Origin: Halanaeroarchaeum sp. HSR-CO
Lineage (GTDB): Archaea > Halobacteriota > Halobacteria > Halobacteriales > Halobacteriaceae
NCBI RefSeq assembly: GCF_024972755.1
Contig: NZ_CP087724.1
Span: 186,001-250,000, forward strand
Reading direction: 5' to 3'
Length of the DNA: 64,000 bases
This document shows positions 1,333 to 33,680 of this stretch, piece by piece. A model generated the notes under the pieces. It worked only from the letters and a program-made list of their open reading frames with translations, was not told the origin of the DNA and made no database searches. Position numbers and translations under genes: made by a program. The number at the start of each line of letters is the position of its first letter. Position 1 is the first letter of the stretch.

Positions 1333-1863
1333 CTACTCGTCGACGCGACCAGCGATACGCGCTGCGATGTCGTCCATCGCCGACTCGTTCAGGTCGGGTC
1401 GCGACCCGACGACGCCGTGGATCGGTCCGCCACCGTCCCCCTCGAACCGTGGAACGATGTGGCCGTGGACGTGGTCGACCTCCTGGCCGGCGGCGCGACC
1501 GTTGTTGAACGCGACGGTCGACGCGTCCGCGTCGACGGCCTCCTCGATTACCGGGACCAGTTCGTGGAGGAGCGAGAAGACGGCCTCGCCCGCTTCTGGG
1601 GGGAGGTCGCCCAGCGTCTCGTGGTGGTCCTTCGGGATGACGAGCGTGTGCCCGGGCGCGAGTGGATTTGCGTCGAGGAACGCGATGGCGTCGTTCGTCT
1701 CCGCGACTTCGCCGTCTTCTCGCGGGCTTTGCCCGCTCGAATGGTTCGCGGAGCTTCGCTCCGCGCTACTCCGATTCGAGGCGCGTGGCGCCTCGCTGGT
1801 CTCTGCGACGATGCGTGCGTCCGCCTCACCGTCGGCGATGGCACAGAAGATGCACTTCGACAT
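1333..1863 (-). CDS. HIT-family nucleotide hydrolase/transferase with internal insertion
   Basis: Histidine-triad protein of 176 aa. The triad HVHGH is at residues 131-135 and an N-terminal CIFC (residues 4-7) is typical of zinc-binding HIT proteins. These enzymes usually hydrolyse or transfer AMP from small nucleotide conjugates. Start: the ATG at 1863 opens the usual MSKCIFC; longer in-frame starts lack family resemblance. Residues 23-56 (Ser/Arg/Ala-rich) interrupt the normal link between the first strand and the NDAIAFLDANPLAPGH block. That DNA consists of three perfect hairpins bounded by an 11-base near-exact direct repeat, and it keeps the frame. The fold core is intact, so the protein is probably still functional. 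Confidence 0.92.
   Translation of the reverse strand: MSKCIFCAIADGEADARIVAETSEAPRASNRSSAERSSANHSSGQSPREDGEVAETNDAIAFLDANPLAPGHTLVIPKDHHETLGDLPPEAGEAVFSLLHELVPVIEEAVDADASTVAFNNGRAAGQEVDHVHGHIVPRFEGDGGGPIHGVVGSRPDLNESAMDDIAARIAGRVDE
1697..1809. repeat. in-frame palindromic insertion with three triloop hairpins and flanking direct repeat
   Basis: Inside the HIT gene. The direct repeat GTCTCYGCGAC lies at 1697-1707 and 1799-1809 (102 bases = 34 codons apart). Between them are three perfect hairpins with 3-base loops: 1722-1736 (6-bp stem, TTT loop), 1747-1765 (8-bp stem, TTC loop) and 1777-1795 (8-bp stem, GTG loop). The layout suggests insertion of a short palindromic module with target duplication. 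Confidence 0.8.
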
Positions 1864-2241: not shown

Positions 2242-5200
2242 ATGACTCAATTCGACGGCGACGTCCCGGACCAGTACGACCCGCACGCGGTCGAGGATCG
2301 CGTGTTCGCGTACTGGGACGCGGTCGACGCCTACGAGAAGACGAAAGCCCACCGCGAGGACGGCGAGGACTACTTCTTCGTGGACGGCCCGCCGTACACC
2401 TCCGGTGCGGCACACATGGGGACGACCTGGAACAAGGCGCTCAAGGACGCCTACATCCGGTATCTGCGGATGTCCGGGTACGACGTGACCGACCGACCCG
2501 GCTACGACATGCACGGGCTCCCCATCGAGACGAAGGTCGAGGAGCAACTCGGCTTCGAGAACAAGAAGGACATCCAGGAGTTCGGCGAGGAGAACTTCAT
2601 CGAGGAGTGCAAGGCCTTCGCCGACGAGCAACTCGACGGACTGCAGGCGGACTTCAAATCCTTCGGGGTGTGGATGGACTGGGACGACCCGTACAAGACG
2701 GTCGATCCGGAGTACATGGAGGCCGCCTGGTGGGGCTTCAAACGGGCCCACGAACGAGGGCTCGTCGACCAGGGCAAACGCTCTATCAACCAGTGTCCGC
2801 GCTGTGAGACGGCTATCGCCAACAACGAGGTCGAGTACGAGGACGTCTCTGACCCCTCTATCTACGTCAAGTTCCCATTGGCGGAGCGGGATGGCTACCT
2901 GGTCATCTGGACCACCACGCCCTGGACCATCCCGGGCAATACCTTCGTGGCGGTCGACGGCGAGGCGACGTACGCCGCCGTGGAGGCGGAGAAAGACGGC
3001 GAGACGGAGGTCCTCTACGTCGAGGAGACGCTCGTCGAGGACGTTCTGAAGGAGGGTCGTTACGACGATTACGAGGTCCTGGAGACGGTCGCGGGCGAGG
3101 AGATGGTGGGCTGGACCTACGACCATCCGCTCGCGGCGGAGGTCCCCGACCACCCGGCCTTCGACGGTGCGAAACAGGTCTACACGGCCGACTACGTGGA
3201 GGCCGACCGGACGGGACTCGTCCACTCCGCGCCGGGCCACGGTGAGGTCGACTTCGAGCGTGGTCAGGAACTCGGGCTCGAGATCTTCAGCCCGGTGGCC
3301 GGCGACGGCGTCTACACCGAGGCGGCGGGCGAGTACGCCGGCGAGTACGTCCGGGACGCGAACGAGGCCATCATGGACGATCTCGAAGAGAAGGGCCTGC
3401 TACTTGCACGCGGGACAGTCCAGCACTCCTACGGACACTGCTGGCGCTGTGATACGCCCGTCATCCAGCTGGCCACCGATCAGTGGTTCATCACCATCAC
3501 GGACATCAAAGACGAACTGCTCGAGAACATCGAGGACAGCGAGTGGTACCCGCAGTGGGCCCGTGACAACCGCTTTCGCGACTTCGTCGAGGAGGCCCCG
3601 GACTGGAACGTCTCCCGCCAGCGGTACTGGGGCATCCCGATTCCGATCTGGACGCCGAGCGCGGACTCGTCCGCGAACGGAGGCGATGAAACCGCCGGAG
3701 GCTGGGATGGCGACATGGACGAGGTCATCGCGGTCGGGACCCGCGAGGAACTCGCCGACCTGGTCGACCAGGACGTCGACCCGGAGCAGGTCGACCTCCA
3801 CAAGCCGACCGTCGACGACCTCACCATCACCCGCGAGGGGACGACGTACACCCGCGTCGAGGACGTCTTCGACGTCTGGCTGGACTCCTCGGTCGCCAGC
3901 TGGGGCACCCTCGGCTACCCGAGTGACGACGAGGCATTCGAGGACCTCTGGCCGGCGGACCTCATCATGGAGGCCCACGACCAGACCCGCGGGTGGTTCT
4001 GGTCCCAGTTGGGCATGGGCAGCGCAGCGCTCGGGGAGGTCCCCTACGAACAGGTGCTCATGCACGGCCACGCCCTCGCGGAGGACGGCCGGAAGATGTC
4101 CAAGTCGGTCGGCAACATCGTCGAGCCGAGCGAGGCCATCGATCGGTACGGCAGAGACGTCATGCGCCTGTTCTTGCTCTCGGTCACCCCGCAGGGCGAC
4201 GACATGCGCTTCTCGTGGGACGAGATGGCCACGATGCAGCGTGACCTGAACATCCTCTGGAACGCGTTCCGCTTCCCGCTGCCGTACATGGAGATGGACG
4301 GCGTCGACCCGAACGCGCTCTCCATCGAGGACGGCATCGCCACCTGGACGCAGGCGGACGGCTCCGTCCGCGAGATGCCCCTCGAACGCGTCGATCGGTG
4401 GCTCCTCTCGCGCCTCCAGGCCGTCGTCCACGACGCGAACGAAGGATGGGACGATTTCGAACAGCACCGGGCCCTCGAAGCCCTCCTCGAATTCCTCGTC
4501 GAGGACGTCTCCAGGTACTACATTCAGGTCGTGCGCGAACGAATGTGGGACGAGGCGGCCACCGACTCGAAACTCGCCGCCTACGCCACCCTCGTCCACG
4601 CGCTCCGCGAGGCAGTCGTCCTGCTGGCGCCCTACGCACCGTTCGTCAGCGAGGAGATCTACCAGCGACTGACCCGCGACGAGGGCCATCCGACGGTCCA
4701 CATGTCCGACTGGCCGACGCCTGCGGAGACCCTCCGGGACCCCGCTCTCGAGGACGACATCGACACCCTGCGCGACATCGAGGAGGCGGGTTCACACGCC
4801 CGGCAACTGGCCGGCCGCAAACTCCGCTGGCCCGTCACCCGCGTCGTCGTCGACGCCGACGACGAGCAGGTCGTGACCGCCCTGGAGCGCCACGGCGACC
4901 TGCTCGCGGAGCGACTCAATGCCCGCAAGGTCGAACTGATCGACCCCGACGGGACCTGGGGGGAACTCCAGTACACCGCGACCGCCGACATGGGCGTCCT
5001 GGGCCCCGCGTTCGGCGCCGACGCCCAGGACGTCATGAACGCCATCAACGAGACCGTCGTCGACGAGCGTAACCTCGCCACCTTCCAGGAGGCCGTCGGC
5101 GCGGCACTCGGCGAGGCCGTCGAACTGTCGGGCGACATGATCGAGTTCGAGGCCGTCACGCCTGAGAACGTCGCTGGCTCGGAGTTCGAGGGTGGCACCA

Positions 5201-5490
5201 TCTACGTCGATGCCACCCTGACCGACGTCGTCGAGAGCGAGGGCTACGCACGGGAAGTCATCCGCCGCGTCCAGGAGCTGCGCAAGGACCTCGACCTGGA
5301 CCTCGACGCCGAGATCGACCTCGAGATCGTCGTCTACGACGAACGCGTCGGGAAACTCGTCGCCGAACACGAGGACCTCATCACGGAGGAGGTCCGGGCC
5401 GACGAACTTCGAGACCTCGACGACGGCCGCCGCGAACAGTACGAGATCGAGGGCGTCGACGTCGAACTCGCGATCGAACCGGTCGACTGA
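2242..5490 (+). CDS. ileS: isoleucine--tRNA ligase
   Basis: Class I aminoacyl-tRNA synthetase of 1082 aa, charging tRNA-Ile in the cytosol. The HIGH motif appears as HMGT in the PYTSGAAHMGT block near residue 60, and the KMSKS loop (GRKMSKSVGN) is near residue 618. The editing domain lies between them and the C-terminal anticodon-binding region carries an acidic tail. Length and order match archaeal IleS. The ATG at 2242 follows an AT-rich stretch (TTATCCTTTTAG, about 2209-2220) that could be the promoter of a nearly leaderless transcript. No truncation or frameshift is seen. The divergent neighbour is a small membrane protein. Confidence 0.98.
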   Translation: MTQFDGDVPDQYDPHAVEDRVFAYWDAVDAYEKTKAHREDGEDYFFVDGPPYTSGAAHMGTTWNKALKDAYIRYLRMSGYDVTDRPGYDMHGLPIETKVEEQLGFENKKDIQEFGEENFIEECKAFADEQLDGLQADFKSFGVWMDWDDPYKTVDPEYMEAAWWGFKRAHERGLVDQGKRSINQCPRCETAIANNEVEYEDVSDPSIYVKFPLAERDGYLVIWTTTPWTIPGNTFVAVDGEATYAAVEAEKDGETEVLYVEETLVEDVLKEGRYDDYEVLETVAGEEMVGWTYDHPLAAEVPDHPAFDGAKQVYTADYVEADRTGLVHSAPGHGEVDFERGQELGLEIFSPVAGDGVYTEAAGEYAGEYVRDANEAIMDDLEEKGLLLARGTVQHSYGHCWRCDTPVIQLATDQWFITITDIKDELLENIEDSEWYPQWARDNRFRDFVEEAPDWNVSRQRYWGIPIPIWTPSADSSANGGDETAGGWDGDMDEVIAVGTREELADLVDQDVDPEQVDLHKPTVDDLTITREGTTYTRVEDVFDVWLDSSVASWGTLGYPSDDEAFEDLWPADLIMEAHDQTRGWFWSQLGMGSAALGEVPYEQVLMHGHALAEDGRKMSKSVGNIVEPSEAIDRYGRDVMRLFLLSVTPQGDDMRFSWDEMATMQRDLNILWNAFRFPLPYMEMDGVDPNALSIEDGIATWTQADGSVREMPLERVDRWLLSRLQAVVHDANEGWDDFEQHRALEALLEFLVEDVSRYYIQVVRERMWDEAATDSKLAAYATLVHALREAVVLLAPYAPFVSEEIYQRLTRDEGHPTVHMSDWPTPAETLRDPALEDDIDTLRDIEEAGSHARQLAGRKLRWPVTRVVVDADDEQVVTALERHGDLLAERLNARKVELIDPDGTWGELQYTATADMGVLGPAFGADAQDVMNAINETVVDERNLATFQEAVGAALGEAVELSGDMIEFEAVTPENVAGSEFEGGTIYVDATLTDVVESEGYAREVIRRVQELRKDLDLDLDAEIDLEIVVYDERVGKLVAEHEDLITEEVRADELRDLDDGRREQYEIEGVDVELAIEPVD

Positions 5491-32730: not shown

Positions 32731-33329
32731 ACCATCGGGTAGCGGCCCACGACTCAAATCCCTTACGAGAATAGAGCTGCCGCCATCGATAGGACGTTTG
32801 AGGCCGTCTCCACTCGTTTCTCGCCGGTATCGTATGGAAGATCGTGCGAACAGGTGGTCAGGGTGGCGACCGAAGGGAGCCACCTATATGCGAACGGCGA
32901 ACGCAGTGAGCCGTGAGCAGGGAGGTGGCCACCGGTCACCTCCTTGTGTGCGAGTGGCGAAGCCGCGAGCAGGGTGGCGCCGGCAGGCGCCCCGAACACG
33001 TTCAGTCCCGGAGCGGGCGACCACGCTCCCGCCGAGTTCGCTCCGGGCCGTGTGTTACAGCATAGCCGCAGTTGGTTCGATTTCGGTATTTGAACCTTCG
33101 CAAATGCGATACATTTTCAATTTTCTCCACAAGCATTCGCGCACCGAGGGGCTCGAAGAGCCCGGGAGGTGCGCGATTCACCGCGCCGCAGGCGCGGGCC
33201 GACGAACCCCCGAAGGGGGTGAGGACGGCTTTTGGCGGAGCTTTTGCCAGGGCCGCGCTTCGCGCGGCCCGCTGCAAAAGGTCCTACTGCGTAAGCGTTT
33301 TTGTTCCACACCGGCTACGGTATATCACT
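32731..33329. repeat. 599-base gap packed with palindromic modules
   Basis: No convincing gene. On the left are GGAGGTG...CACCTCC (32921-32943) and CCCGGAGCG...CGCTCCGGG (33007-33047). On the right are four hairpins with 3-base loops: 33149-33163 (GAA loop, inside a 7-bp outer stem 33139-33145/33168-33174), 33182-33196 (GCA loop), 33206-33220 (GAA loop) and 33250-33270 (TTC loop, 9-bp stem). CTTTTG and CAAAAG pair around the last one. An AT-rich stretch near 33105-33125 could be a promoter. Confidence 0.7.
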
Positions 33330-33680
33330 ATGAGCCAGGGGCCCGACGACGACCGCCTCGAACAGCTTCGCGAGGAAAAGCTGCAGGAGCTACAGCAACA
33401 GCAGGGGGGTGAGGGCCAGGAGGAGGCCGTCCAGGCCCAACGCGAACAGGCCGAGGCCCAGAAGAACGCCCTGCTCAAACAGCACCTCACCGACGGCGCC
33501 CGAAAACGCCTCAACACGGTGAAGATGAGTCGCCCGGACTTCGGCGAACAGGTCGAACAGCAGGTGGTCGCGCTCGCCCAGTCGGGGCGACTCCGCGATA
33601 AGATCGACGAGGCGAAGATGAAGGAGTTGCTCAACGAGCTCAAACCCGACTCGACGAGCTTCAACATCGAGCGGCGGTAA
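33330..33680 (+). CDS. PDCD5-related DNA-binding protein
   Basis: 116 aa. The family core is intact: a charged N-terminal helix ([19 protein letters not shown]), a mid helix [20 protein letters not shown], the signature [20 protein letters not shown] and C-terminal [11 protein letters not shown]. The archaeal homologue binds DNA and is a triple-helix bundle (PF01984). The ATG at 33330 follows CGTTTTTGTTCC and a TATATCACTATG context at leaderless distance. It is followed 5 bases later by the PP-loop gene. Confidence 0.94.

Follow-up and report, generated by a model that had tools for sequence, protein, structure and literature searches.

Insertion in the HIT-domain gene

What is the segment of perfect hairpins that lies in frame within a HIT-domain gene near the start of the window, and how did it come to be there? 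The window is the whole stretch of DNA that was analysed, 64 kb from Halanaeroarchaeum sp. HSR-CO. An earlier note on this DNA had described the segment as 102 bases between 11-base near-exact direct repeats, adding 34 codons without breaking the frame. The features concerned are as follows:

1333..1863, minus strand: HIT-domain gene with the insertion (176 aa from the ATG at 1863; Pfam PF01230, E 1.6e-23)
1697..1809, minus strand: whole insertion with both copies of the 11-base repeat (from alignment with 24 empty family homologues and the DNA of genome G101)
1799..1809, minus strand: 5' copy of the 11-base direct repeat, GTCGCAGAGAC (host sequence, VAET codons)

The alternative upstream ATG at 1896 would give a HIT protein of 187 aa, and HIT homologues begin at the position equivalent to 1863. 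The gene is present in 26/26 family genomes, and residues 23-56 were found in none of the aligned homologues. The 34 extra codons are missing from the HIT protein of 24 other family genomes, including G101 of the same genus (a 25th relative, G155, was aligned in the wrong frame and is left out of this count), and six more haloarchaeal homologues likewise do without them. The alignment with relatives that the earlier note proposed thus came out in favour of an insertion, and the segment is not a common part of all HIT homologues.

The empty site of G101 reads GTCGTCGCCGAGACCGAGAGC, with the repeat present once, which makes the net insertion in the window gene exactly 102 nt. GTCGCAGAGAC is likewise single at the empty sites of other genomes. 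At the protein level, R-VVAETES-ALAFLDA in G101 corresponds to R-IVAETSEAP...GEVAETND-AIAFLDA in the window, a gain of 34 codons. The two flanking repeats, GTCGCAGAGAC (1799-1809) and GTCGCGGAGAC (1697-1707), are identical at 10/11 bases. The length, the near-exact repeats and the in-frame addition given in the earlier note were therefore all reproduced.

An AlphaFold model of the HIT protein (24 sequences) had a mean pLDDT of 79.6, with the HIT fold outside a disordered segment. The insert lies between strands 18-21 and 59-63, and pLDDT was below 50 at residues 25-41, 44-47 and 51-55. The model suggests that the insert forms a disordered turn connecting two beta strands. When the inserted segment was folded as RNA, it scored better than 200/200 shuffles (z -3.4). 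We found three perfect hairpins with 3-base loops and stems of 6, 8 and 8 bp, as described before, at 1722-1736, 1747-1765 and 1777-1795. Elsewhere in the 64 kb, three such hairpins come together within 113 nt at one place only (33149-33270, intergenic), compared with a chance level of three clusters in total over 40 dinucleotide shuffles of the whole window.

A 54-nt core within an outer repeat

Comparison with other copies divided the insertion into the following parts:

1715..1768, minus strand: core, the putative mobile unit, 54 nt (18 codons); gapless in 86 copies, absent to the exact nucleotide from locus L267, present in 107/392 genomes
1722..1736, minus strand: hairpin H3, GCGGGC-AAA-GCCCGC, 6 bp; stem invariant in 86 copies, which is uninformative, its positions being fixed by the search pattern
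1747..1765, minus strand: hairpin H2, CGCGGAGC-GAA-GCTCCGCG, 8 bp; three stem pairs covary across copies
1777..1795, minus strand: hairpin H1 of the outer repeat, CGAGGCGC-CAC-GCGCCTCG, 8 bp; core-less outer modules in 25/26 family genomes
1697..1714, minus strand: tail of the outer repeat, CGGCGAAGTCGCGGAGAC (consensus CGGYGAARCCGCGAGC), from comparison with other copies; contains the 3' copy of the 11-base repeat

The core is laid out as TAGC-H2-linker-H3-GAGAAGA and translates to (D)SAERSSANHSSGQSPRE(D). It has one hairpin near each end, and no inverted repeat is formed by its termini, TAGC and GAAGA. The 86 copies align without gaps from -33 to +27, and the length of the core is constant. 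The bases preceding it vary (GAG in 48, CGA in 10 and GGA in 7 of 99), and the foot of H2 is GTAG in 38/86, ATAG in 18/86 and GTGG in 6/86 copies.

The outer module GCGAGCGGYGAARCCGCGAGC was found without the core in 25/26 family genomes and stands in frame in several genes, including the isoleucyl-tRNA synthetase (IleRS) gene of G129, at the IleRS site described below. Since the outer module occurs on its own, the window copy reads as a nest in which the outer repeat (H1 and tail) surrounds the 54-nt core. The earlier note had taken the segment for a single three-hairpin module; it is a two-hairpin unit inside another palindromic repeat.

Other hairpin repeats were seen in the course of the analysis. 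The outer module also forms tandem 54-nt (18-aa) repeats within an ORF (L330:633-761, ERASGEAASHAAAQSDGA). In the window, hairpin modules related to the outer repeat form an array at 32850-33010, apparently between genes (GCGAGTGGCGAAGCCGCGAGCAGGGTGGCGCC), and four perfect hairpins lie between genes at 33140-33290, upstream of a dsDNA-binding gene (PDCD5-like, PF01984) at 33330. Related two-hairpin repeats with the linker design of the core and different stems lie, apparently between genes, elsewhere in the same genome (L002 and L071-L073, at C1:2579363 and C1:2661218-2661352). A second two-hairpin repeat, GATGACGA-stem-TCGAACCA (L256-L263, L241), sits in the terminal palindrome of IS605-type elements (GCCTCGGGGTC...TTGACCCCGAGGC) and is also nested in hairpin H2 of the core at L068 and L128.

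Distribution in the order

When the HIT protein was used as a search query, it retrieved loci that matched the insert alone, inside unrelated proteins: DP2, PurL, GlyRS, acyl-CoA synthetase, LOR/SDH, a helicase, LeuD and a glutaredoxin/thioredoxin-reductase-like protein (the host of L056 and LeuD are named provisionally, from their own sequence). We then searched the order with the right hairpin of the core (27-nt pattern, at most 2 mismatches), and found it in 107/392 genomes and 38/95 genera, with divergent copies missed by a pattern that fixed the H3 sequence. The reversed pattern, used as a control, gave 0 occurrences among the 392 genomes. The segment first noted in one gene belongs to a family spread across the order.

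We examined 99 loci, which fall into 68 groups by flank similarity and represent about 65 distinct hosts, for example IleRS, GatE, PolC, iPGM, SufB, MutL, MutS, DNA ligase and lipoamide dehydrogenase. A few copies are apparently intergenic (L074, L090, L158). Many hosts hold more than the 54 nt of the core, in inserts of varying length.

Empty sites and target duplication

Empty-site DNA was found in congeners for the hosts Trm5, endonuclease, PurU, GatE and IleRS. When the flanks of minimal copies were joined, iPGM, LOR/SDH, lipoamide dehydrogenase, SufB and acyl-CoA synthetase all gave a plausible host sequence (examples are VVVED-GESPKAYTKV, NAFG-DEGVTIDYDAVP and LERQ-ETGDDVEGNRYYSG). For lipoamide dehydrogenase, no empty site was found in the genus of G181. 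The window itself provides an element-free gene:

2242..5490, plus strand: IleRS gene without the element (LAERDG-YLVIWT); orthologues at L088, L091 and L114 carry the element here

Within one genus (g49), the IleRS gene has outer arms and core in three genomes and is fully empty in two. A further genome, G261, has the same outer arms and lacks exactly 54 nt (L267). As far as the sequences tell, this state may be compatible with either the precise entry or the precise loss of the core.

The IleRS loop holds an outer-only insert (L309) and outer-plus-core inserts (L088, L091, L114) in two families. The sequences suggest that this loop is an insertion hot spot or the place of a very old insertion.

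The earlier note had likened the direct repeat to a target duplication. The repeat is real, and its reading as a duplication is doubtful. The sole clear case is L130 (Trm5), with a perfect 10-bp duplication relative to empty sites, and no clear duplication was seen against the empty sites of the endonuclease, abhydrolase, TruA, PurU, GatE and IleRS hosts. Direct repeats at 78 loci were no longer than those obtained with swapped flanks. Target duplication as a trait of the family was ruled out by this control together with the empty-site alignments. Since the 3' copy GTCGCGGAGAC overlaps the tail consensus of the element, GCCGCGAG(A)C (conserved tail GAARCCGCGAG), the 11-base repeat in the window may stem from likeness to the tail, or from microhomology, instead of duplication.

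We also considered whether the element generally inserts into palindromes already present in the host and rejected this, as the flanks showed no excess of complementarity and this test found no target palindrome common to the insertion sites. At L089, and in the copies of type B (with GGCGGYGA/ARCCGCC arms), the element looks as if it had inserted into a loop.

Probable mobility of the element

The element is probably a non-autonomous mobile palindromic repeat of haloarchaea that persists in genes only in a harmless frame. According to this explanation, the core would have come to lie within another palindromic repeat that is dispersed just as widely, and the pair would have inserted into the HIT gene where a turn joins two beta strands. 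The DNA would be moved by an enzyme, of the host or of a transposon, that acts on the hairpins. Our first guess is a single-strand mechanism similar to HUH/IS200-IS605 transposition, which we would put somewhat short of an even chance.

A more specific version of this explanation, rather than an alternative to it, is that the core is a minimal IS200/IS605-type relict, similar to the PATEs, moved by TnpA on single-stranded DNA. It has two subterminal hairpins, no inverted ends and no family-wide duplication, and 52-bp PATEs derived from IS605 ends have been reported in Haloquadratum (PMC3119063). The right end of a TnpB transposon contains one copy (L089) and a TnpB-less remnant another (L092); both end with GGGTAGTTCAC. 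However, the core looks inserted in the transposon end at L089, and a limited sample of TnpB right ends from the same genome and its relatives does not resemble it. Moreover, Y1_Tnp is absent from the carrier genomes G072, G107 and G155, and the preceding bases vary rather than forming one tetranucleotide. We consider this version possible and lean against it.

Two related candidates were rejected. There is no association with a Y1 transposase in the family. L089 had pointed to TnpB right ends or omega RNA as a source, which the limited sample of other TnpB ends did not support.

Reading frame and conservation

At 63/63 loci with an assignable Pfam host (62 loci and HIT), the core is read in one frame of six, and at about 40 of them Pfam domain matches flank the element on both sides. 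If all frames were equally allowed, the chance of this result would be about 10^-49, with the caveat that the loci are not fully independent; the single-frame conclusion does not depend on their independence. In Pfam tests of the hosts, no credible gene read the element in another frame at any locus. Other-frame or antisense genes at ambiguous loci had no Pfam support, and L086, L093 and L099, taken up as other-frame cases, were explained by neighbouring genes or an unrelated match. The core never shifts the frame because its length is 54 nt.

The peptide of the used frame is DSAERSSADHSSGQSPRED, in which alanine is the sole hydrophobic or aromatic side chain. This frame alone among the six is free of I, L, V, F, M, W, Y and C (GRAVY -1.9). 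Four of the five unused frames are mostly open, and one is stopped in 64/99 copies. The simplest reading of the single frame is selection after insertion, possibly with partial target choice. Genic copies would persist only in the sense frame that yields a hydrophilic, disordered peptide, such that the host enzyme tolerates the insert, and selection would act through this tolerance rather than through a benefit.

If instead the peptide were a functional module (a linker, tag or interaction motif), it would have spread by recombination and been kept for the function of the protein. The near-identical peptide, in one frame, in dozens of proteins agrees with this, as does its retention, across different genera, at a constant site in each of lipoamide dehydrogenase, SufB and acyl-CoA synthetase. 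However, the hosts share nothing and close relatives do without the insert. Across 86 copies, the entropy is 0.51 at codon position 3 and 0.53 at position 2, so the third position is no freer than the second. Three pairs of H2 are complementary in 82-84/86 copies, compared with 33-43 expected from column composition, and each occurs as two or three pair types. Stem changes that preserve pairing alter the peptide (AERSSA, EGRSPS, EARSAS). Because the stem pairs covary while position 3 is no freer than position 2, the hairpins, not the peptide, look conserved. The covarying stems are a few subtypes, not 40 independent changes, so the covariation may reflect few events, and the H3 columns carry no covariation information. 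We regard a functional peptide as improbable.

Slightly less probable still is that the insert is lost at a step after transcription or passed over during translation, as in an intron or bypassing, leaving normal host proteins. Strong hairpins, the 11-base flanking repeats in the window and the fixed unit length would fit such a process, but it needs neither a constantly open frame nor a unit that is a multiple of three. Consistent flanking repeats are lacking, inserts vary in length between hosts, and Rfam gave no match in five loci, intron families included. GC-rich low-complexity coding drift is virtually out of the question: in a GC-rich genome many hairpins do form by chance, but the dispersal of the pattern, with its empty reversed control, and the clean empty sites already refute it.

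Implications

A stronger form of the favoured explanation, a mobile repeat tolerated in a harmless frame, is that the 54-nt unit of 18 codons is actively moving and has a form suited to translation, always read as a disordered hydrophilic linker, jumping within essential genes across the order and nesting in other palindromic repeats. We hold this only tentatively. If true, no earlier protein-coding palindrome system would have been described from Archaea, and few known transposable units would be as small. Selfish palindromes read in frame within proteins have been presented as peculiar to Rickettsia, apart from scattered REP cases among other bacteria. Here, an archaeal, order-wide counterpart comes with an exact unit length, empty sites in congeners, core-less intermediates and dozens of unrelated hosts. 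The movement of such elements and their tolerance by proteins become testable in genetically tractable halophiles. The family also serves as a warning that, in haloarchaeal enzymes, a short repeated peptide is often a piece of inserted DNA and not a protein domain.

Comparison with known systems

In the openly available literature, we came across no account of in-frame palindromic elements from haloarchaea, and any priority is provisional. Several known systems share part of the design. Classical MITEs are also short and non-autonomous, but the core has neither terminal inverted repeats nor a target duplication of constant length.

Within the haloarchaea, the PATEs of Haloquadratum are free of a transposase gene, with palindromes near their ends, no inverted ends and no target duplication, all of which the 54-nt core shares; forms of 52 bp, from IS605 ends, are suspected to be mobile (PMC3119063). 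In contrast, no similarity to IS605 ends was found for the core in the limited sample of TnpB right ends, and the consulted passages of that report do not describe PATEs as in-frame coding inserts in housekeeping genes. The small mobile repeats (SMRs) of Haloquadratum target other palindromic elements; SMR-A is about 110 bp long, has terminal inverted repeats and lies in IS605 ends or PATEs (PMC3119063). The second repeat (L256-L263) fits this targeting better than the core does.

In bacteria, GTAG REPs are hairpin units of 20-40 bp whose dimers encode 20-30 residues within genes, including repair, tRNA synthetase and ligase genes; archaea appear in that report in the reference list only (PMC3733652). 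The present element shares the GTAG (38/86) or GTGG (6/86) at the foot of H2 in half of its copies and lacks it in the other half. Unlike in GTAG REPs, the second hairpin has no inverted tag and there is no linked RAYT/Y1 transposase, Y1_Tnp being absent from three carriers.

A close parallel is with the Rickettsia palindromic elements (RPEs), of about 150 bp, with ten families in R. conorii (Ogata 2000, 2002, as cited in PMC10969869). Both are short palindromic repeats in frame in unrelated protein genes, where one frame yields a conserved peptide (PMC10969869), and the likeness to RPEs drawn in the earlier note stands. It is a likeness of anatomy and behaviour, and sequence homology is not expected. 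The present element differs in being archaeal, in its core of 54 nt and in its nesting in other palindromic repeats. RPEs and intragenic bacterial REPs are the same kind of thing as this element (PMC10969869, PMC3733652), which acts like the palindromic elements of Rickettsia but is a separate archaeal family.
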